24,947 nucleotides of DNA from a virus: the IMG/VR virus record IMGVR_UViG_3300026097_000097, positions 1 through 24,947 of that record. One strand, written 5' to 3'. Shown piece by piece: positions 4,845-21,368 of the stretch; positions within the stretch are counted from its first letter, which is position 1, and the number at the start of each line of letters is the position of its first letter. The position numbers were made by a program, and so were the translations under genes. The notes below the pieces were generated by a model. The model made no database searches and had not been told where the DNA came from. It was given only the letters and a program-made list of their open reading frames with translations.

Positions 4845-5252
4845 ATGCGAGCAGGCAGCAATGCACTTAAAAACGATGAGTGGATTACAGATGAAAATGT
4901 TGAAGACCCAAAAGTATTACCAGAAATTCCAGGATATCACTTACTTGTACGTCCTGTCTCTGTTAAGCAGACAACAAAGGGCGGTATTATTCTTCCTGAC
5001 TCAACCAAATCGGACATGGCTTATCTTACAACAGTGGGTCGTGTAGTTAAGGTTGGTAACCTAGCATACAAGGATGACAAGTTTGATGGCAAACCTTGGT
5101 GTAAGGAGGGAGACTATGTTTGCTATGGTAAACATACAGGCGATAAGTTTTTGTATAAAGGTATCCAGTTCCTACTTATCTTTGACGATGCTGTTAAAAT
5201 GGTAGTGGAAAGTGCTAAGGACTTAGACCCTACATTTAACTTATCAAATTAA
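4845..5252 (+). CDS. GroES-like co-chaperonin
   Basis: Cap of the chaperonin folding chamber, comparable in role with phage T4 gp31. The 135-aa protein has an extension of about 28 residues and then the Cpn10 fold: YHLLVRPVSV (31-40), a mobile loop with GGIILPD at 46-52, VGRVVKVG (64-71), and the GDYVCYGKHTG strand (89-99) matching the GroES GDIVLFGKYAG-type segment. The GGI-I-L tripeptide that contacts GroEL is retained, so it could work with host GroEL; no GroEL gene is visible. AGAGGA at 4831-4836 is the likely ribosome binding site. It sits just ahead of scaffold and capsid genes, which suggests capsid folding as its task. The N-terminal extension and the Cys residues C86 and C93 are unusual compared with host GroES. 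Confidence 0.92.
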   Translation: MRAGSNALKNDEWITDENVEDPKVLPEIPGYHLLVRPVSVKQTTKGGIILPDSTKSDMAYLTTVGRVVKVGNLAYKDDKFDGKPWCKEGDYVCYGKHTGDKFLYKGIQFLLIFDDAVKMVVESAKDLDPTFNLSN

Positions 5253-8908: not shown

Positions 8909-9554
8909 TTACACATACCTAGTCAATGATATTATAGAAGCAACTGAGAACGAAGGTTCTGAGTTTATCTCTTATATTCCTAAAATGGTTAATCGTGTTG
9001 AGGAACGACTAACTAAGGCATTGGATGATTATGGTCTGGTAACTGCAACATCTATTACACTTACGTCAGGTACCAATACATATACTCTTCCAACAGGAAC
9101 ACGTATTATTAAGAATATTAATATTGAAGAAGCAGGTAGCAAAATAAATCTACTTCAAAGAACAGATGAATTTATTAATGACTACTGGCCAGTAAGCGCA
9201 GAGACAGGAACACCTAAGTATTATGCAAGGCAAACAAATAGCAACATTATCTTTGCTCCTACTGCAAGTGCTACTTATAGTGGCAAACTTGTCTATGTCG
9301 TTAAGCCAGCAGCTTTAACAAGTGCTAATCAAAATAACTATTATAGTGATTATTGCTACGATGCTTTGTTTTATGGTTGCATGATTGAAGCAACTAACTT
9401 TATGAAGAACTATACTGTTACTCAAGTATATGAACAGCAGTATCAAAATGCAGTTGAAGGACTTCGCAATCAATCAAGACGTACACGCCGTGATGACATG
9501 GAAGCTAATGCTTCTCCTGCAGGTGGTGACAATACAATTGGAGGAGGAAACTAA
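8901..9554 (+). CDS. Putative head-tail adaptor / neck protein
   Basis: A 217-aa protein with the layout of head-tail adaptors: an N-terminal helix, NDIIEATENEGSEFISYIPK (9-28), then MVNRVEERLTKALDDYGL, a beta domain (about 47-125), and a C-terminal pair of helices (CYDALFYGCMIEATNFMKNY, near 151-170). The tail is polar and Gly-rich. The plan resembles the gp4-like protein at 13472 although the two are not close in sequence. In short-tailed phages such proteins sit between portal and tail hub. The specific counterpart (P22 gp4, T7 gp11 or another) cannot be fixed from sequence alone. It overlaps the previous gene by 8 bases and the next by one (TAATG). Confidence 0.68.
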   Translation: MANYTYLVNDIIEATENEGSEFISYIPKMVNRVEERLTKALDDYGLVTATSITLTSGTNTYTLPTGTRIIKNINIEEAGSKINLLQRTDEFINDYWPVSAETGTPKYYARQTNSNIIFAPTASATYSGKLVYVVKPAALTSANQNNYYSDYCYDALFYGCMIEATNFMKNYTVTQVYEQQYQNAVEGLRNQSRRTRRDDMEANASPAGGDNTIGGGN

Positions 9555-10270
9555 TGAGTAGTGCTCTTATTAAAGCTTTACTTAAGCAAGGTAAAAAAGG
9601 AGCAGCTGAAAAAGATTTCGGTAAGCGTGCAGTTGCTCAGGTTATTCGCCGTGATAAAGCTAAAGCAGAAAAAGAAATGGCTAAAAGAGTTGCCGATAAA
9701 GCTGGTGCAATGCCTAGCATTAAGAAAGAAAAGATGTCTAAGCAACAAAAAGCTACTGCTGCTTTTAAACGTGCTGAAGCCAAAGCAAAGAAACTTAAAG
9801 ATACTCCTCCTAAGAAACCAGTACAGGTACAGAAAGTTAAAAGCAAAGAAGCACAAGCAATGCTTGATGACGAAATGCGCCGTGAACTTAGAGGTGAAAC
9901 TGTTAAGGCAAGACGTGAGCGTCTTAAGAAGGCTACTGATAAAAAGAAACAACGTAAAGCTCGTAAGTTAACTGAAGGTCGTGAGTCTAGTGAAGAGTTT
10001 GAAGCACGTATGTCTCGTGAAGCTCGTCAAGGCGGTGGTCAGGATGTGGGTCGCCGTAAAGCTAATCGTGGTTCAGCCTCTGACCCTCTATATGAATATG
10101 AGGCAGGTCAGGCATCTTCTTTCTTACGTGGTAAAGATAAACCATTCTTAGATGAATATGAAAAAGATTTGGTTGATATAGTGTCAAGAAAGAAAGGCGG
10201 TAAAGTTTCTCCTCGTGGTTGCGGCAAAGCTTTACGTGGTTATGGTAAAGCTATGAAAGGTGGTAAGTAA
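9554..10270 (+). CDS. Basic protein with C-terminal RGYGKAMKGGK tag (1 of 3)
   Basis: A 238-aa, Lys/Arg-rich protein with long charged helices (KRAEAKAKKLKDTPPKKPVQ; RRELRGETVKARRERLKKAT) and no hydrophobic core resembling an enzyme. The C-terminus reads KKGGK, then RGCGKALRGYGKAMKGGK. Closely related endings occur on the next two gene products, so this is a modular tag. The strong positive charge suggests DNA or RNA binding inside the virion or scaffold-like behaviour, but that is inference. It begins within the stop of the adaptor gene (TAATG at 9552-9556). No named family is recognised. Confidence 0.8.
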   Translation: MSSALIKALLKQGKKGAAEKDFGKRAVAQVIRRDKAKAEKEMAKRVADKAGAMPSIKKEKMSKQQKATAAFKRAEAKAKKLKDTPPKKPVQVQKVKSKEAQAMLDDEMRRELRGETVKARRERLKKATDKKKQRKARKLTEGRESSEEFEARMSREARQGGGQDVGRRKANRGSASDPLYEYEAGQASSFLRGKDKPFLDEYEKDLVDIVSRKKGGKVSPRGCGKALRGYGKAMKGGK

Positions 10271-10271
10271 A

Positions 10272-11225
10272 ATGTCCATGAGAAAAAAACTTTTAGAAGG
10301 TATAATTAAACCTAAAGGAACTAGAGCAGCTAAAGAAATAGAAGCTTCTAAAAAAAATCGTGAAACAATTAGTAGGCTTGCTAATCAAAAACGCATAGCT
10401 AAATCTGGTCAGTCTGCTGTTTTACCAGCAGCAAAAGCTTCTGTAAAAAAAGCAGTTAAAGGTTCTAACAAAGAAACAGGAAGCAAAAGAATTGTAGGTA
10501 CAAATCAAATAGGTAAAAAACCTGTTAAAGAAATGACTAAGCTTGAGAAACAAGATTATGATTTTGAAGGTTTTAATAAAGGATTAAAACGTTCTCTTAT
10601 AGATAAGGCTAGAAAAGGTGAATCAGCAGTATATCAAGGAACAGACTATAGCTTCATGCTTTCTGAATTACGTGGTATTAAACCCAGAGGAGAAAAGAAA
10701 GCTTTAAAAGAACGTCAAAAAGCAAATGTAGAAGAAGTAAAAAAGCGTCAGGCAGGAACAGTTAATAAAAGAGAAGGTGGTAAAATTAATACATCTAAGA
10801 GGTATAGAATGAAACCACGTAATAAAGAAACAATGTCTCCTACGGACGCAATGAGAGCTAAATTAAAAGGCAGAGTTTCTACAGGTACTTCTAAGTCGTC
10901 TCCTGCGGCACCTTCTTTAACAACTCCTAAAGAAACGTCACCTAAAAAAACATTTACTAAGAAAAAAGAATTTATGTATGGAGATAAACTACCAGAAACA
11001 AAACCTAAACAAACATTTGGTCAGGCTTTTGCAGCTGCTCGTAAAGCTGGTAAAAAAGAATTTATGTATAATGGTAAACCATATCATACACGTACAAAAG
11101 AAGAAGAAGCTAAAAGAAAAAAATCAGGAACAGTTAATAAAAGAGCAGGTGGTAAAGTAAGTAAACCTAAAGGTTGCGGTGCTGCAACACGTGGTTATGG
11201 TAAAGCAATGAAAGGAAACAAATAA
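10272..11225 (+). CDS. Basic repeat-containing protein with C-terminal RGYGKAMK tag (2 of 3)
   Basis: ATG 10272 is preferred (317 aa) because AAAGGTGG lies about 8 bases upstream; a GTG at 10260 would overlap the previous gene. The protein is highly basic and low in complexity. GTVNKR-x-GGK occurs twice, encoded by 32-base repeats at 10753-10784 and 11125-11156 with one mismatch. KKEFMY occurs twice, encoded by an exact 18-base repeat at 10962-10979 and 11052-11069. Residues 249-262 read FGQAFAAARKAGKK, followed by a FMYNGKPYHTRTKEEE segment, a short module I recall from other phage structural proteins. The end is KGCGAATRGYGKAMKGNK. The function is unknown; it is probably a virion or DNA-associated protein. 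Confidence 0.78.
   Translation: MSMRKKLLEGIIKPKGTRAAKEIEASKKNRETISRLANQKRIAKSGQSAVLPAAKASVKKAVKGSNKETGSKRIVGTNQIGKKPVKEMTKLEKQDYDFEGFNKGLKRSLIDKARKGESAVYQGTDYSFMLSELRGIKPRGEKKALKERQKANVEEVKKRQAGTVNKREGGKINTSKRYRMKPRNKETMSPTDAMRAKLKGRVSTGTSKSSPAAPSLTTPKETSPKKTFTKKKEFMYGDKLPETKPKQTFGQAFAAARKAGKKEFMYNGKPYHTRTKEEEAKRKKSGTVNKRAGGKVSKPKGCGAATRGYGKAMKGNK
10753..11156 (+). repeat. 32-base direct repeat encoding GTVNKRxGGK
   Basis: Copies at 10753-10784 and 11125-11156 differ at one base. Each encodes the KGG-type segment; in the second copy it runs straight into the RGYGKAMK tag, while the first is internal. It looks like a duplicated tag-proximal module. Confidence 0.8.
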
Positions 11226-11226
11226 A

Positions 11227-11550
11227 ATGGTATTACCTCTATTATTAGGCGGAGCAGGTGCAACAGCAGCTGGAAAACTCTATGAAGCTTTTGAAAAAAA
11301 GAAAGACAAGAAAAAGAAAAAGGCTTACGAAGCTGGTAAAGCTGCTGGTATGGCTGCAGGCATGGAACAAGCAGGCATGGAAAATGTAGGCGGTGGAGCA
11401 GGCATGTCAGTTAATCGTAAAAAGGGCGGTAAGCTTGGTGGCGGTTCTTCATGTAAGAAAAGTATGAAGATGAAAAAAGGCGGAAAGATGGGTTCAAAAC
11501 CTCGTGGCGTTGGCTGTGCACAACGTGGTTACGGGAAAGCAATGAAGTAA
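11227..11550 (+). CDS. Small protein with hydrophobic N-terminus and RGYGKAMK tag (3 of 3)
   Basis: A 107-aa protein. The first 20 residues (MVLPLLLGGAGATAAGKLYE) are hydrophobic and could insert in a membrane or act as a packing helix. Then come a Lys cluster (EKKKDKKKKKAY), an Ala/Gly/Met-rich helix (AGKAAGMAAGMEQAGMENVG), two KKGGK motifs, and an ending RGVGCAQRGYGKAMK that lacks the final GGK. It follows the previous gene by one base. The tag shared with the two upstream products suggests common targeting or assembly. The family is not recognised. Confidence 0.75.
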   Translation: MVLPLLLGGAGATAAGKLYEAFEKKKDKKKKKAYEAGKAAGMAAGMEQAGMENVGGGAGMSVNRKKGGKLGGGSSCKKSMKMKKGGKMGSKPRGVGCAQRGYGKAMK

Positions 11551-14142: not shown

Positions 14143-14394
14143 ATGGCAGCAAGAAGAACATTAGGTCTATGTGATATCTGTGGGTTTAGATATCCATTAA
14201 AGAGTTTAAAGAAAAATAGTTATGGTATGATGGTTTGTTCCATGGACTACGAAGGTAAATATGATTTGGTAAACCATCCACAGAATAGGATAGCTAAAGT
14301 TTCAGATGACGAGAATGTTAAAGACGCAAGACCTCAAGTACCATCAATGGTTTCTGCAGTTCCCGTATCAGCTTGGTTGCCTCCATATCCGTAG
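14143..14394 (+). CDS. CDICG zinc-finger structural-module protein A
   Basis: An 83-aa protein with LCDICGFRYPLKSLKKNSYG (9-28), then MVC and GKYDLVNHPQN. The candidate metal ligands are C10, C13, C32 and H45. The same blocks with identical spacing appear in the next gene, so the two are tandem paralogs. This copy ends in a Pro/Val-rich tail rather than the RWNTV ending. CDICG/NSYG proteins recur in phage tail modules, but their job is unknown to me. The Shine-Dalgarno is AAGG in the end of the adaptor gene. Confidence 0.78.
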   Translation: MAARRTLGLCDICGFRYPLKSLKKNSYGMMVCSMDYEGKYDLVNHPQNRIAKVSDDENVKDARPQVPSMVSAVPVSAWLPPYP

Positions 14395-14402
14395 GGAAGT
14401 AA

Positions 14403-14702
14403 ATGGCAAAAGGAAAACATGTTAGAGCTGAGTGTGATATTTGTGGGTTTGCTTATAGAAGGAGCTTACTACGTAAGAACAGCTATAACTTATGGGTATG
14501 CCCAAGTGATTGGGATGGTGGATATGATAGAGTTAACCACGCCCAGAACAAGTCGCCTGACTTAAGAGACAATAGTCAGTATGTAATAAACGCACGACCC
14601 GACCCTAACATTGATAGGAATATTAAATGGGAAGATGCAACTGAAGTTTATACCACTATTTATCAGTGGGAACTTGTAGATAAAAGGTGGAATACAGTAT
14701 AA
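14403..14702 (+). CDS. CDICG zinc-finger structural-module protein B (paralog)
   Basis: A 99-aa protein with CDICGFAYRRSLLRKNSYNL (11-30), WVC, and GGYDRVNHAQN, so C11, C14, C33 and H46 match protein A one residue later. The C-terminus WELVDKRWNTV is typical of the full-length form of this family as I remember it. It lies 8 bases after copy A and its stop shares one base with the fiber start (TAATG), suggesting coupled synthesis with the fiber. It may be a small virion or fiber-associated protein; it could also regulate, but no DNA-binding evidence is seen. Confidence 0.8.
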   Translation: MAKGKHVRAECDICGFAYRRSLLRKNSYNLWVCPSDWDGGYDRVNHAQNKSPDLRDNSQYVINARPDPNIDRNIKWEDATEVYTTIYQWELVDKRWNTV

Positions 14703-17521
14703 TGACAGACTTAACTGGTAAACTAATTGCTAACTCCTATAAAGACCTTCTCACTATTAACTCTAGTGCAACAAATGAAGGTGTTGATGGTACTCTTCGT
14801 AGAGTACAGGATGGCTCAGGAACTAATACTGCATTAGAACTTTCTCAAAACGCAGCTAAGATTTACGGTGATGTAGACATTACTGGTACACTAGATGTAG
14901 CAGCAATTAATCTTAATGGTTTAGATGTCAGTGCTATTAATGTAGTAGACCTTTCTGCTACTAATATTAATACAACAAACATCACAGTAAATGGTGACGG
15001 TGTAGCTACAAGTGCTGCACTTACATCTGTTGAAGCAATTATCTCAAGTAACATTGTATTTGTTCTTAATGCACAGGCATCTGTGCTAGGTGTATTAGCA
15101 AGCTTAGCAGCTGTAGATACTAACTTACAAAGTAATATTAATCAGGTATCAGCTGTAGCTGCTCAGAATACAGTACAAACAAGTATCAATGCTGTACAGA
15201 TAGGATTAGCTCAAACATCTATTGCAGCTAATGCTTCAGCTATTCTAGCTAATACTTCAGCTATTGCTCTTAATGCTACTGCTATTAATAATGTATCAGC
15301 TGCACTGGTATCCACCTCTGGCGTTTTAACAACTAATATTAACACAGTTTCAGCAGGGTTGTCAACAGCTAATGTTAGCATTGCGGCAAATAGTTCTGCA
15401 ATTGCTGTAAATTCTGCGGCGATTACATCTATTAATGGAGTGATAGGAACTTTAGCAAGTGCTGGTACATCTGCCACTTTAGAAAGCCGTATAGCTGCTG
15501 TAAGCTCTACAATGGCAACAAGTATAGCTAATAGTAATTCTGCTATTACAGCCTTATCTGCTACACTTGAAAGCCGTATAGATACTGTAAGCTCAACTAT
15601 GGCTACAAGCATTAGTAATAGTAACTCTGCTATTACTGCCTTATCTGCAACTATGGCTACAAGTATTAGTAATAGTAATTCTGCTATTGCTGCCCTATCT
15701 GCAACTATGGCTACAAGCATTGCCAATCATCTGCCTCTAGCAGGTGGGACAATGACTGGTAACCTTATTTTAAATGCTGACCCCACAGTAGACCTTGGTG
15801 CTGCTACTAAACAATATGTAGATAATCTTACTGCAGCAGGCATTCACTTCCATGAGGCAGTTCGATTTGAACAGCCAGGACCAGTATCTGCTACTTATGA
15901 TAATGGTACAGATGGTGTAGGTGCTACGCTGACTAATGCAGGCACACAATCTATATTAATAGTTGATGGTGTAACAGCTGTTAATGATGACCGTATTCTT
16001 ATTTATGAACAAGTGTCAGCTACACAAAATGGTGTATATGTAGTTACAACTATTGGTTCACCTAGTACTAACTGGGTACTTACACGTTCTTCAGATACAA
16101 ATACTGCAGGACCTGGTTCTTCTACTCAACTAGATTCAGGCTCTTATTTCTTTATTACTGAGGGTAATACAGGAGCAGGTGAATCTTATATCTGTAACGT
16201 AGATACATCTATTGTCTTTGGTACTACTGATATTACATTTGTACAGTTTAGTTCAGCTATACAGTATACAGCAGGAACTAACATTAACATATCAAATGAC
16301 CGTATTATTTCTACATCAGGTGTACCTACTAATGCTGAGTTAGCTGCAGTCTCTGCAACATTGGCTACAAGCATTGCTAACGTATCTGCTACATTAGAAG
16401 GTAGGATTGCTGCAGTTTCTGCGCTTATTCCTACATCATTAACACAACTTGGTATTAGTGATGGAACAGCTGGTCAATATTTACAAACAGATGGTAACAA
16501 TGTATTTACATTTGTCTCCATAGCAGCAGGAGGTGGCTCTGGAACAGTAACAAATATTAAAGCTGGTTCTAATATCTCTATAACAGAGGCAGGGACTACA
16601 GTTACTGAGACAACTACAAGTGCCACTATTGCTGTGACTGCTAGCCCTACATTCTCTAGTGCAGTAATTACTGGTGACTTAACAGTTGATACAAATACAT
16701 TATATGTTGATAGCGCAAATAATAATGTTGGTATTGGTACTATAACTCCAAATACTTTGTTGGACGTAGAGTCAAATACAGCATCAGAAATTAGAGCTGT
16801 TAGAGATGGTGGAAGGTCTGTCAACATTTATGCTGATGGAGTAAATGCAATACTTGGGTATAATACTGGAGAACTAAGAATCGGTGAAACCACCAGCACC
16901 ATTTCTTCTAATTTTACAGAACGTATGCGCATTGATAGCAGTGGAAATGTTGGAATTGGTATTACATCCCCAAGTGCTGACTTGCATTTGTTTAAAACAA
17001 CTGGTGACGTTGGTATTAATATCCAATCAAGCGCAACAATAAACGCAAAAGCATTTATTAACCTTTATGGAAGGGATGGGTCAAACGTCAACCAGATTTG
17101 GAAGATTGAGAATAATGCACATGCTTTAACATTTAATGATGATGGCACAGAGCGCATGAGACTTGAAACAGATGGTGACCTACATGTCGATGGTAACGTA
17201 GTTGCTTACTCTACTACTATATCTGATAAGCGTCTTAAGAAAAACATCCAACCTATTGAAAATGCCTTGTGGAAAGTAAGCCAAATCAATGGCTGTACCT
17301 TTACATATCTTAAAGATGACCGTAAAAGCGCAGGCTTGATTGCTCAAGACCTTGAGAAAGTTTTACCATCTGCTGTTATTGAAGACAAGGCAGTATTCCA
17401 TGGGGAAGAGGGAGAGACTTATAAGACTGTACAGTATGACCAAGTTATTGGTTTGCTTGTAGAAGCTATCAAAGAGTTGAATGCTAAAGTTGAAAGGTTA
17501 GAGAATGGCTCTTCCAGCTAG
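14702..17521 (+). CDS. Tail fiber with C-terminal S74 intramolecular chaperone
   Basis: A 939-aa receptor-binding fiber. ATG 14702 (TAATG with the previous stop) is preferred; an upstream ATG at 14687 adds five residues. The N-terminus (MTDLTGKLIANSYKDLLTIN) is a virion-attachment module seen in marine phage fibers. Residues 268-342 contain 18-residue repeats (MATSISNSNSAITALSA) suited to a trimeric coiled coil. LPLAGGTMTGNL (near 344) is a common fiber segment. The last 99 residues form a Peptidase_S74 domain beginning SDKRLKKNI: S841 and K846 match the Ser-Lys dyad used for self-cleavage just before the serine once the trimer has folded. The overlapping adhesin gene starts inside its last codons. 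Host range would depend on the part between about 380 and 840. Confidence 0.93.
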   Translation: MTDLTGKLIANSYKDLLTINSSATNEGVDGTLRRVQDGSGTNTALELSQNAAKIYGDVDITGTLDVAAINLNGLDVSAINVVDLSATNINTTNITVNGDGVATSAALTSVEAIISSNIVFVLNAQASVLGVLASLAAVDTNLQSNINQVSAVAAQNTVQTSINAVQIGLAQTSIAANASAILANTSAIALNATAINNVSAALVSTSGVLTTNINTVSAGLSTANVSIAANSSAIAVNSAAITSINGVIGTLASAGTSATLESRIAAVSSTMATSIANSNSAITALSATLESRIDTVSSTMATSISNSNSAITALSATMATSISNSNSAIAALSATMATSIANHLPLAGGTMTGNLILNADPTVDLGAATKQYVDNLTAAGIHFHEAVRFEQPGPVSATYDNGTDGVGATLTNAGTQSILIVDGVTAVNDDRILIYEQVSATQNGVYVVTTIGSPSTNWVLTRSSDTNTAGPGSSTQLDSGSYFFITEGNTGAGESYICNVDTSIVFGTTDITFVQFSSAIQYTAGTNINISNDRIISTSGVPTNAELAAVSATLATSIANVSATLEGRIAAVSALIPTSLTQLGISDGTAGQYLQTDGNNVFTFVSIAAGGGSGTVTNIKAGSNISITEAGTTVTETTTSATIAVTASPTFSSAVITGDLTVDTNTLYVDSANNNVGIGTITPNTLLDVESNTASEIRAVRDGGRSVNIYADGVNAILGYNTGELRIGETTSTISSNFTERMRIDSSGNVGIGITSPSADLHLFKTTGDVGINIQSSATINAKAFINLYGRDGSNVNQIWKIENNAHALTFNDDGTERMRLETDGDLHVDGNVVAYSTTISDKRLKKNIQPIENALWKVSQINGCTFTYLKDDRKSAGLIAQDLEKVLPSAVIEDKAVFHGEEGETYKTVQYDQVIGLLVEAIKELNAKVERLENGSSS
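15503..15727 (+). repeat. 54-base coding repeats in the fiber shaft
   Basis: Units at 15503-15556, 15590-15643 and 15644-15697, with a partial copy at 15698-15727, encode variants of S-x-T-M-A-T-S-I-x-N-S-N-S-A-I-x-A-L. A 33-base LESRI-containing insert (15557-15589) separates the first two. Copies differ mostly at synonymous positions. Confidence 0.85.
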
Positions 17522-18467
17522 CGGCCAAATAACATTAAATGAAATACATGTTGAAGCTGGTGGTACATCAACTACTGAAGTTACTATCAATGATGCAGAT
17601 GTTCGTGCGCTTATTGGTGCATCATCTGGTCAAGCTAACTTATCCTTTGCAGACTTTTATGGTGCGAGTGCCACTGTAACAATTAACATTACTCTTACAG
17701 GTAATACTAATAACTATAATATATTTAATAGTAAGGGTGGTACATATGTTGCAGGTAAGACAATAGTTAATCTAACTATTAACTCTGGTGTTACAGTTGG
17801 TTCTACCTCTACAGGTACTTATGCCTTAGATACAGGAACTGGTTGGGCATCTGGTGATGTAATTAATATTGTAAACAATGGTACTGTTAAAGGCCGTGGT
17901 GGTAATGGCGGTAAGGGTGGGGATGCTGCGTATGGTGTGTCTGTTCAAAATGGTGCTGCAGGTGGAACAGGTGGTCCTGCTTTCCGTGCGCAGTTTGCCT
18001 GTACATTCACAAACAACGGCTCTGTCTATGGCGGTGGTGGTGGCGGTGGTGGAGCTGGTGGACGTTATTTTAGTACTTCTGTAGGTAAAGTCACTACTTT
18101 TTATGTAGATGGAGGAAACGGCGGTGGCGGTGGAGCTGGTGTAAACGGAGGTAGCGGAGGAGGAGGAGGAACTGCAAGCGGTGGTCCTAATGGTACTATT
18201 CGAACAAATGGCAACTCAGGCTCTAATGGTACTTCAACAGCTGGTGGGGCTGGAGGAACTAGTGATAACCTTGGTGGTGGCGGTCTTGTTGGAGGTGCTG
18301 GTGGTGGTTTAGGAGCTAACGGTTCAGCAGGGACAGCCAATACTTTTAATAATACTACAGCAGCTACACCAGGAGCAGGAGGGACACGTGGATTCTATCA
18401 AGTAGGTGCAGCAAGTATTAATGGTGGTTCTGGTATAGGTGGAACAGTAGGTGGTAGAAGTTCTTAG
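17505..18467 (+). CDS. Glycine-rich tail adhesin
   Basis: A 320-aa protein. The first 55 residues (MALPASGQITLNEIHVEAGG through FADFYGA) are an attachment domain seen on marine phage fibers. Residues 56-125 are beta-rich. From about 126 to the end the protein is dominated by Gly with Asn, Ser and Thr (for example GGNGGGGGAGVNGGSGGGGG, 203-222). This resembles the glycine-rich blocks of T-even gp38-type adhesins, which pack as polyglycine II sheets and expose variable loops for receptor binding. Intervening non-glycine stretches (FRAQFACTFTNNG, RYFSTSVGKVTTFYVD, RGFYQVGAASIN) would be candidate loops. The ATG overlaps the fiber gene by 17 bases, so expression is coupled. Confidence 0.85.
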   Translation: MALPASGQITLNEIHVEAGGTSTTEVTINDADVRALIGASSGQANLSFADFYGASATVTINITLTGNTNNYNIFNSKGGTYVAGKTIVNLTINSGVTVGSTSTGTYALDTGTGWASGDVINIVNNGTVKGRGGNGGKGGDAAYGVSVQNGAAGGTGGPAFRAQFACTFTNNGSVYGGGGGGGGAGGRYFSTSVGKVTTFYVDGGNGGGGGAGVNGGSGGGGGTASGGPNGTIRTNGNSGSNGTSTAGGAGGTSDNLGGGGLVGGAGGGLGANGSAGTANTFNNTTAATPGAGGTRGFYQVGAASINGGSGIGGTVGGRSS

Positions 18468-18502: not shown

Positions 18503-18862
18503 ATGAATTATAAAATACATGTATCAGGTTATATTGAAGAAACACAACAATTGCTTGTATCTTTTTCTAGTGATGACACAAAGCTTGAAGCTAAAGACTA
18601 TCAGTCTATGGCTTTTGATATTGTACCTTATGGTGATATAAGCATTGAAGAAATTTTAAAGAATATCGCTAGGCAAGCTCCTACTGTTTGTCAAGACATT
18701 GTTACTTATGAATCTATTACGAATAACGATAAGAAATCAGAAGAGTTTAGAAATTTAATTGGACAGAGTTTTGATTATGATATTTCTGATTTATTTATAC
18801 TAGATAGAGCAGTAATAGAAAAAGAGTTGACTAAAGATGTAAAGGAAAGCGAAGAAATATAA
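18503..18862 (+). CDS. Unknown phage protein downstream of adhesin (cassette gene 1)
   Basis: A 119-aa acidic protein. The N-terminus MNYKIHVSGYIEETQQLLVS begins with a beta hairpin pattern, followed by FSSDDTKLEAKDYQSMAFDI, PYGD, and a helical half with an acidic end. I recall similar small proteins after fibers in marine phages, where a fiber-assembly chaperone could be expected, but the function is not established. There is no close Shine-Dalgarno; the predicted transcription start coincides with the ATG, so translation may be leaderless. The stop overlaps the next ATG by one base. Confidence 0.72.
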   Translation: MNYKIHVSGYIEETQQLLVSFSSDDTKLEAKDYQSMAFDIVPYGDISIEEILKNIARQAPTVCQDIVTYESITNNDKKSEEFRNLIGQSFDYDISDLFILDRAVIEKELTKDVKESEEI

Positions 18863-19539
18863 TGACTGTTGAATCTACTATTACTTTTGAAACTCCAGAA
18901 AATACTGATAATATTATTTTAGTAGCTGCTGCTTTTAATATTCAAAAGGGACAGTTTATGAGTAGGGATGATGCTCGTGATATCCCGCATAATAAAACAA
19001 AGATAATAAATCATCCTACTATTTCTGGATTAATTAAGACGGGTGAAAATCATCTTATGACTAAAGGTCGCATACGTATGATTTTTACACTAGATAAAGA
19101 TATAACGACAGAACAGATTCAAAATTATATTACATATATTGAATCAGATTTAATTAATGGTAAGGCTATTTATGTAGAAGCAGCTAATGAACTACATGTT
19201 TTTTATACAGCAATATATGCTCAGGAAACATTTAGAGAGTTTAGTGTTAAGTATGCACCATTGTCTACTAAAGCTAAAATGATTTTCCATGAGGGAAGTG
19301 ATTTACTTTGCTGTCTTAGAATAGATGGTGAGCCTGAGGCTTGGACTACAGAGTATAGAGATATTACTAATACGGCTACGATAGATAAGAAGGGTAACTT
19401 ATGTTATGTTGTGTTTAGTACTGATGTTTCTTCTGGTAATAAATCTTTATCTCGTGGTAAAGCATATAAGTTAACCTCAGATACTATTGATATTACTGTA
19501 TCTGAAAATACTAAAGTTGTGAGAATGTATCGTGATTAA
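18862..19539 (+). CDS. Unknown 225-aa protein (cassette gene 2)
   Basis: Starts in TAATG with cassette gene 1. The sequence is a mixed alpha/beta protein with strands (NIILVAAAFNI, AIYVEAANELHVFYTAIYA), a helix (TTEQIQNYITYIESDLI), and a C-terminal part with KGNLCYVVFSTDVSSGNKSL and RGKAYKLTSDTIDI. No catalytic motif or transmembrane segment is visible and I do not recognise the family. It is AT-rich and tied by overlap to the Coq4-like gene. A fiber-associated or host-interaction function is only a guess. Confidence 0.7.
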   Translation: MTVESTITFETPENTDNIILVAAAFNIQKGQFMSRDDARDIPHNKTKIINHPTISGLIKTGENHLMTKGRIRMIFTLDKDITTEQIQNYITYIESDLINGKAIYVEAANELHVFYTAIYAQETFREFSVKYAPLSTKAKMIFHEGSDLLCCLRIDGEPEAWTTEYRDITNTATIDKKGNLCYVVFSTDVSSGNKSLSRGKAYKLTSDTIDITVSENTKVVRMYRD

Positions 19540-20209
19540 TTTTATTAAAGCAGTTTATCATTGCAATAAACTAAGAACAGATAAACCAGAAGATAAACCT
19601 AAGAGAGTTTCTAAAATAATAAATCTATTTGGAACAAAGAGATACTTAAAGAAACGTGCTAAGTTTTTTTCTAATCCAGAAAATACAGAGTTATTATATC
19701 GTAAAAAAACTTTATACACATTGCTTAAAGATTATAAACAATTTCGTAAGTATAAAGAAGGAACTTTAGGAAAAGAACTTTATAATTTTTTAAGTTCTGA
19801 AGAAGTTGATTATGCTAAAGCAATAGCAGACTTTGCAGGTTTTAATGATGAATATGGCAAACGTGAGAAAAGCATGCACGATATTATACATGTTGTCTTT
19901 GGTTATAGTCGCTCTCGTTTTGGAGAAGGAGCCACATTAATTACAGATTATTGGCAGGGTAATTCTTTTGGATTTGCTTTTATTACTTTACTAGCCCTTG
20001 CTAGACAGAGCATATTACAGCCTTCAGCTGCCCCTATAATCTTTACTGCGCTTAAAGATATATATATAAGACAACAAGGTATAGGCTTACATTTATACCC
20101 TTTTGAAGATAATTTAAAGAAAGATATAAATCAGGTACGAAAAGAACTAAGGATACCTAATAAAGGAAAAGCTACGCATCTTCTTGATAAGTATTCTTCA
20201 TGGGGATGA
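19532..20209 (+). CDS. Coq4-like (ubiquinone biosynthesis family) protein
   Basis: A 225-aa protein with the hallmarks of the Coq4 family: EGTLGKELYNFL (76-87), the metal-binding motif H-D-x-x-H-x11-E (H116, D117, H120, E132) in MHDIIHVVFGYSRSRFGEGA (115-134), and a C-terminal IYIRQQGIGLHLYPFEDN (178-194) followed by DINQVRKELRIP. In cells Coq4 acts in coenzyme Q formation, where eukaryotic COQ4 is linked to processing of the ring C1 position, and it binds membranes and isoprenoid lipid. Whether this protein does that is unknown. The first 60 residues are basic and not obviously part of the family. It starts with GTG 19532, overlapping the previous stop by 8 bases; the first internal Met is residue 115, inside the motif. 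The gene is very AT-rich. Confidence 0.8.
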   Translation: MINFIKAVYHCNKLRTDKPEDKPKRVSKIINLFGTKRYLKKRAKFFSNPENTELLYRKKTLYTLLKDYKQFRKYKEGTLGKELYNFLSSEEVDYAKAIADFAGFNDEYGKREKSMHDIIHVVFGYSRSRFGEGATLITDYWQGNSFGFAFITLLALARQSILQPSAAPIIFTALKDIYIRQQGIGLHLYPFEDNLKKDINQVRKELRIPNKGKATHLLDKYSSWG

Positions 20210-20456: not shown

Positions 20457-21368
20457 ATGGCATCAACATATACTTCACGTATTAGGCTGGAAAAACAAGG
20501 TGATGGTGAAAACGCTAACACATGGGGATTAAGACTTAATCAAAATACTATTGACATGGTTGATGAAGCTGTAGCTGGTTATGAAACCATTAGTGTTGAT
20601 ACTTTATCTTCTATTACATTAACTAGCAATAATGGCACAGAAGACCAATCAAGAAATTTTGCATTAAGATTTACAGGAAATTTAAGCGCAACCTGTACTG
20701 TCGTTGCTCCTGCTTCAGAAAAAGTTTACTTTATAAGCAATGAGACAACAGGTGACCAAGACATTATAATTAAATCAGGTAGTGCTTCTGAAACTATTTC
20801 TGTAGGAAAGCCTGCTTTAGTTGCCTTTGATGGTACAAATTCTGTTAAACTTCAAGATACAATTAATCCTCCTGAGTTTGAATCAGGAACATCTTTGCTT
20901 TTTTATCAAGCAGCAGCTCCTACTGGATGGACAAAGCAGGTTATTAATGATAAAGTTCTCCGTGTAGTTAGCGGCTCTGGTGGCAGCACTGGTGGTACTA
21001 CAGCTTTTAGTACAGTTTTTTCTTCAAAAACTCCAGCTGGCACAGTGGGTGTTACTGTATCTGGTCACGCTCTTACTGTTTCACAGATACCTGCACACAA
21101 TCACCAATGGTATATTGGTACAGGTGGTGGTAGTGGTGCTAATTCTACTATTGATTTTTTCTTTGGCACACCTACTTCTTCATATAATAGTAGTGGTTCA
21201 CCGTCAGGTTTTACAGGTGACCCAGATTACAACAGTTATTATACAGGCGGAGTAAGAAATTTAGGCGCAGCTTCTACACACACACATAGTGCCACAGCTA
21301 CATTTACTGGAACAGCATTAGACTTTGATGTTCAATATGCAGATGTTATTATTTGTACAAAGGATTAA
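20457..21368 (+). CDS. Tail fiber / collar-type adhesin with HxH motifs
   Basis: A 303-aa protein. The N-terminus SRIRLEKQGDGENANTWGLR (7-26) is an attachment module common to marine phage fibers. Residues 51-135 form a beta-rich shaft. The C-terminal part begins LLFYQAAAPTGWTK (147-160), typical of phage tail-collar domains, and carries IPAHNH (211-216) and HTH (275-277) with glycine-rich loops between. In T4 long tail fibers HxH motifs from three chains coordinate iron along the trimer axis; here the same use is plausible but unproven. The ribosome binding site AGGAT at 20446-20450 overlaps the holin stop. This is the third fiber or adhesin gene of the window. Confidence 0.85.
   Translation: MASTYTSRIRLEKQGDGENANTWGLRLNQNTIDMVDEAVAGYETISVDTLSSITLTSNNGTEDQSRNFALRFTGNLSATCTVVAPASEKVYFISNETTGDQDIIIKSGSASETISVGKPALVAFDGTNSVKLQDTINPPEFESGTSLLFYQAAAPTGWTKQVINDKVLRVVSGSGGSTGGTTAFSTVFSSKTPAGTVGVTVSGHALTVSQIPAHNHQWYIGTGGGSGANSTIDFFFGTPTSSYNSSGSPSGFTGDPDYNSYYTGGVRNLGAASTHTHSATATFTGTALDFDVQYADVIICTKD

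Follow-up and report, generated by a model that had tools for sequence, protein, structure and literature searches.

A Coq4-like gene paired with a predicted bicupin in a phage tail-fibre cassette

Introduction

What does a protein of the Coq4 family do when its gene lies among the tail-fibre genes of a phage? Coq4 belongs to the pathway of coenzyme Q synthesis, and how it acts chemically was settled only recently. Work on human and ancestral COQ4 identified a Zn-dependent C1 decarboxylase that loses its activity when the metal ligands are mutated (PMC7615680); a review describes the protein instead as an oxidative decarboxylase (PMC11495197). Viral auxiliary genes have been reported to include another quinone gene, ubiG (PMC9301287).

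The gene considered here lies in a 24,947-nucleotide stretch of marine phage DNA (IMG/VR record IMGVR_UViG_3300026097_000097), the whole of which is referred to as the window. An original prediction had noted its intact Coq4 metal-binding signature and had offered two roles, the tuning of host quinone metabolism and respiration, or a virion or membrane function for which the lipid-binding Coq4 fold has been co-opted. In this study, we examine the family and fold of the protein, the gene directly upstream, and the corresponding loci of related phages. The features of the window are collected in Table 1.

Table 1. Features of the window around the Coq4-like gene
Feature	Position	Strand	Details
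Tail fibre with C-terminal endosialidase-type chaperone (Peptidase_S74)	14687..17521	+	PF13884 3.8e-16; phrog_5668
Gly-rich tail-fibre/Gp38-like adhesin	17505..18467	+	phrog_11439 1.1e-15; PF05268 weak, below cut-off
Conserved 119-aa protein preceding the bicupin gene	18503..18862	+	
Partner protein, predicted two-domain cupin (bicupin/pirin-like)	18862..19539	+	225 aa; AlphaFold2 model, fold matches
Overlap of partner stop and Coq4 start	19532..19539	+	8 nt, GTGATTAA
Coq4-like protein gene	19532..20209	+	225 aa; GTG start; PF05019
Putative metal site H116, D117, H120, E132 (HDxxHx11E)	19877..19927	+	HDIIHVVFGYSRSRFGE
Fibre-like structural gene downstream of Coq4	20457..21368	+	303 aa; phrog_31104 4.7e-12

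Results

Family and fold of the Coq4-like protein

The product of the window gene is a genuine Coq4-family protein. The original prediction had proposed a profile search and a structure comparison as checks on this assignment, and both bear it out. In the first, the PF05019 profile matched the protein with 34.7 bits (E 1.4e-8), above the curated Pfam cut-off of 22.9 bits, and the match ran over residues 40-209, equivalent to profile positions 47-218 of 221. All four predicted signature residues, H116, D117, H120 and E132, are present in the translation at the correct HDxxHx11E spacing, and the EGTLG segment and the C-terminal FED...VRKELRI pattern were likewise located (KEGTLGKEL at about 75-83, YPFED at 189-193 and VRKELRI at 202-208). 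Glycines at +4 and +11 after H120, seen in cellular Coq4, are also kept. The motif is invariant in alignment A1, and shuffled windows gave an expected count of 0.00 for its DNA pattern. The reading frame is under purifying selection, with a dN/dS of 0.17 (NG86; dN 0.049, dS 0.283) when compared to a relative of 91% identity (L002).

For the second check, an AlphaFold2 model was built from 33 phage relatives. The model is all-helical (pLDDT 89, pTM 0.85), and in the PDB its fold is shared with the two solved Coq4 structures alone: 6e12, the cyanobacterial protein Alr8543, bound to oleate and Mg according to the entry's title (Z 15.7, rmsd 3.4, 194 residues aligned), and 3msq, or Npun02000094, also cyanobacterial (Z 15.0), the next PDB entry reaching only Z 3.2. 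The match spans residues 1-210 of the window protein. A profile of the phage sequences found the 6e12 and 3msq chains at 1.7e-21 and 2.2e-15, respectively, and the HDxxH and GE columns align with both solved chains, column for column. A phmmer search of the PDB with the single window protein had returned a DNA primase, a chance match; the family profile gave the Coq4 chains instead. In the predicted model the four ligands would be clustered in space, where they probably hold a divalent metal.

Relatives of the phage protein

A first scan with the window protein returned one close contig, and a scan with the upstream gene returned five, each with an adjacent Coq4-like gene. The degenerate DNA pattern HDxxHxxxGx6GE found 66 IMG/VR stretches, 61 of which were judged Coq4-like and fell into six loose groups; these counts include near-duplicates, and the contigs are fragments without hosts. 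Five pattern matches (L032, L060, L061, L062 and L080) were discarded by eye as not Coq4. All 33 non-redundant phage relatives match PF05019. Conservation of the scan motif in alignment A4 is partly by construction, the loci having been picked by that motif.

Searches of existing collections returned no counterpart. PHROGs searched with all relatives gave no Coq4-like family, only noise at E 0.05-0.1, and tblastn against 50,697 isolate phage records gave no match for five Coq4 proteins or for two of the bicupins described below. No phage Coq4 was mentioned in the open-access papers searched, a coverage that stops short of subscription journals and preprints.

A scan of 84,980 genomes (A6) found no close cellular relative of the phage protein. 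In a tree of 85 rows, for which a limited sample of cellular Coq4 genes was fetched with the HDxxHxxxGx6GE pattern, the phage proteins form several phage-only clades, including that of the window, on a long branch; the tree has several long branches and leaves open whether phage Coq4 arose once or more often. Within this limited cellular sample, neither scan nor tree points to a recent origin from a host gene. One candidate for a host Coq4, L140, titled Flavobacteriaceae (MAG ARS19), was rejected. The phage cassette is present on it, and its neighbours, a fibre-like gene, a bicupin and phage-type small basic proteins, suggest a phage contig that was mis-binned. The nearest isolate terminases are those of pelagiphages of the HTVC023P kind (39%), a similarity that does not fix the host.

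A predicted bicupin is paired with the Coq4-like gene

The gene directly upstream, of which the original prediction made no mention, encodes a protein with the predicted double-stranded beta-barrel fold of the cupin superfamily. Its AlphaFold2 model (pLDDT 92) found the pirin YhhW as best fold match at Z 7.8, with cupins throughout the match list (VIA), and HutD at 3.3e-5 by Foldseek. The window bicupin has no Pfam match over cut-off; the bicupin of L026, a T4-like relative, has one that scores above it, to PF17954, a pirin-type cupin domain. A DIP2116 match of the partner protein fell below cut-off and was not used. No conserved metal-ligand motif was found: among 24 sequences there is no invariant His or Glu, and only C150 is invariant. 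Many cupins are without metal.

The pairing extends well beyond the window. A homologous bicupin adjoins Coq4 in 40 of the 62 phage loci found by the Coq4 motif, a set that includes the window row, itself entered as empty. It directly precedes Coq4 in 38 of these 40, often with an overlap of 4-8 nt; the other two have a 2OG-Fe(II) oxygenase gene between bicupin and Coq4 (L081, 2362-3015) or the bicupin downstream (L070). Relatives of the window type share its 8-nt overlap, and many others have one of 4 nt. Such overlaps of bicupin stop and Coq4 start suggest translational coupling. Coq4 occurs without a bicupin in T4-like phages (the L016 group) and in the L040 group. In L040 (5543-7037), and also in L052, the Coq4-like gene overlaps the end of a glycosyltransferase-2 gene in place of a bicupin. 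None of the sampled cellular Coq4 genes has a bicupin alongside, except that on the phage-like contig L140.

The pair lies within a fibre cassette

The location inside a fibre cassette, as originally predicted, holds: fibre genes lie on both sides of the pair, and the arrangement is a conserved feature rather than an accident. A gene of the same type as the downstream fibre-like gene follows Coq4 in two other contigs (L003 and L005), and the downstream region also holds a virion structural protein (phrog_3287). A weak match of the 119-aa protein to MJ0548_N fell below cut-off and was not used. In four relatives the Coq4 gene is adjoined by a 2OG-Fe(II) oxygenase gene (L025, 4654-5205; L043, 11647-12192; L058, 8637-9179; L054, 7824-8390).

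Several other features of the window were observed. Immediately ahead of the S74 fibre gene stand two neighbouring small paralogues with CxxC pairs (14143-14702), and three consecutive basic, Lys-rich proteins of 238, 321 and 107 aa (9554-11550) have near-identical tails (RGYGKAMKGGK, RGYGKAMKGNK and RGYGKAMK). A candidate GroES-type co-chaperonin was noted by eye at 4845-5252.

Conservation of the position between fibre genes across different tailed phages, together with the translational overlap, would be expected if the Coq4 fold and the bicupin had been re-used as a structural or chaperone component of the fibre or baseplate. No PHROG structural family was matched convincingly, however, and two results of the following section also weigh against such a virion part.

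Desaturases occupy the Coq4 slot in related phages

Because a motif scan selects for the motif, loci were also collected by the bicupin alone. This second search fetched 57 contigs, 53 of which reach the next slot; three that end too early and one with too little bicupin were excluded from the slot count. The slot after the bicupin holds Coq4 in 40 of the 53 and a PF00487 fatty-acid desaturase in the other 13, and never both. The desaturases carry three His boxes (HRLFTH, HxHHH and HxxHH). At the level of whole records the two genes were again mutually exclusive, with a desaturase in 0 of 18 Coq4 records and Coq4 in 0 of 9 desaturase records. The exchange is seen most directly between L033, with Coq4, and L217, with a desaturase: identity is 62% for the gene before the bicupin, 58% for the bicupin, 40% for the next small gene and 93% for a gene further downstream. 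Two different types of desaturase stand in tandem after the bicupin in L210 (4693-6230), L214 (4693-6182) and L229 (3299-4788). Since every window-type bicupin locus found (7 of 7) keeps Coq4, the exchange has been seen in relatives alone, and these belong to another subfamily.

Among the contigs chosen by bicupin, HDxxHx11E is kept in all 32 distinct complete Coq4 proteins, three of which lack the glycines required by the scan pattern and still keep the ligands. If the role were purely structural, there would be no need for these ligands, and replacement by a multi-pass membrane enzyme is hard to reconcile with a component of the virion. We therefore regard re-use in fibre or baseplate assembly as improbable.

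The exchange of Coq4 and desaturase behind the same bicupin most likely means that the slot encodes interchangeable lipid-acting enzymes, although it may instead be a modular insertion site whose occupants have no common function.

Discussion

Both occupants of the slot belong to families of metalloenzymes that act on membrane lipids, which favours a lipid-acting cassette. Our main reading, to which we give a probability of about one half, is that the locus is a cassette, linked to the fibre genes, of lipid-acting metalloenzymes that can take one another's place and that, late in infection, modify a lipid of the host or envelope.

Family, fold, motif conservation, pairing and slot exchange are observed; the working that follows is a proposal built on them. 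The Coq4-like protein and the upstream bicupin would be made together, from a cassette inserted among tail-fibre genes. The Coq4-like protein may dock on the membrane and take a prenyl or acyl lipid from the membrane or envelope of the infected cell into its helical cavity, where the lipid head group would be modified at a divalent metal coordinated by the four HDxxHx11E residues. The bicupin could serve as a ligand-binding or docking partner. Linkage to the fibre genes suggests that expression is late and that the cassette is connected to host recognition and adsorption, for example if surface lipids were altered during infection. That several marine tailed-phage lineages share a cassette of bicupin plus Coq4-like protein or desaturase that remodels host envelope lipid, possibly in connection with the receptor, is a more tentative proposal, which we rate at somewhat less than even. 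If true, it would give Coq4-fold proteins a role in viruses beyond the synthesis of coenzyme Q.

The first role originally offered was that of an auxiliary metabolic gene, in which the Coq4 step of ubiquinone synthesis, whether C1 or oxidative decarboxylation, keeps host respiration running. Such a gene would account for conservation of the fold and of all four ligands, on which the activity of COQ4 depends (PMC7615680), and ubiG provides a viral precedent. Several results speak against it. UbiE-type (PF01209) and COQ7 (PF03232) genes were absent from 18 related phage records, many of them fragments; the phage proteins form clades of their own with no close cellular relative; the gene sits with fibre genes rather than with other metabolic genes; and its slot is exchanged with desaturases. 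Quinone tuning thus gains no support, and re-use of the Coq4 fold for a membrane-related function, the membrane half of the second role offered, fits better. Compared with a lipid-acting cassette, a dedicated ubiquinone gene is the less probable reading, and we consider it unlikely.

As a special case of the lipid-acting cassette, the enzymes might modify a receptor or surface lipid in a manner tied to fibre specificity, as in superinfection exclusion. Linkage to an adhesin gene is consistent with this, as is the presence in some phages of 2OG oxygenases, glycosyltransferase-2 and desaturases as neighbours. Serotype-converting enzymes provide the model here, and the likeness to them is one of analogy; we hold this more specific version to be quite improbable, slightly more so than a role in the virion.

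The phage Coq4-like proteins are a large and old group with conserved metal ligands, no visible quinone pathway and a slot in which desaturases can take their place. If our reading of the cassette is true, they provide new test material for the capabilities of the Coq4 fold and put a name to a lipid-acting function beside phage fibres.

Three known systems bear comparison with the locus. The partner protein shares the predicted two-domain cupin fold of the pirins YhhW and YhaK and of HutD, but the resemblance is of middling strength (Z up to 7.8) and it has no conserved set of metal ligands. The Coq4-like protein agrees with the Coq4/COQ4 family in its fold, its HDxxHx11E ligands, the GE at +11/+12 and profile matches in both directions, whereas its identity to the solved Coq4 chains in structural alignment is only 14-18%; unlike cellular Coq4, it belongs to phage-only clades, is coupled to a bicupin and lies among fibre genes, with no quinone genes found alongside. 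Fatty-acid desaturases are multi-pass membrane enzymes of the di-iron type, with a fold unrelated to that of Coq4. The desaturases of phages, such as that of pelagiphage Mosig, are alike to the Coq4-like protein in being metal-dependent lipid enzymes, and in sister phages it is desaturases that fill the slot after the bicupin.
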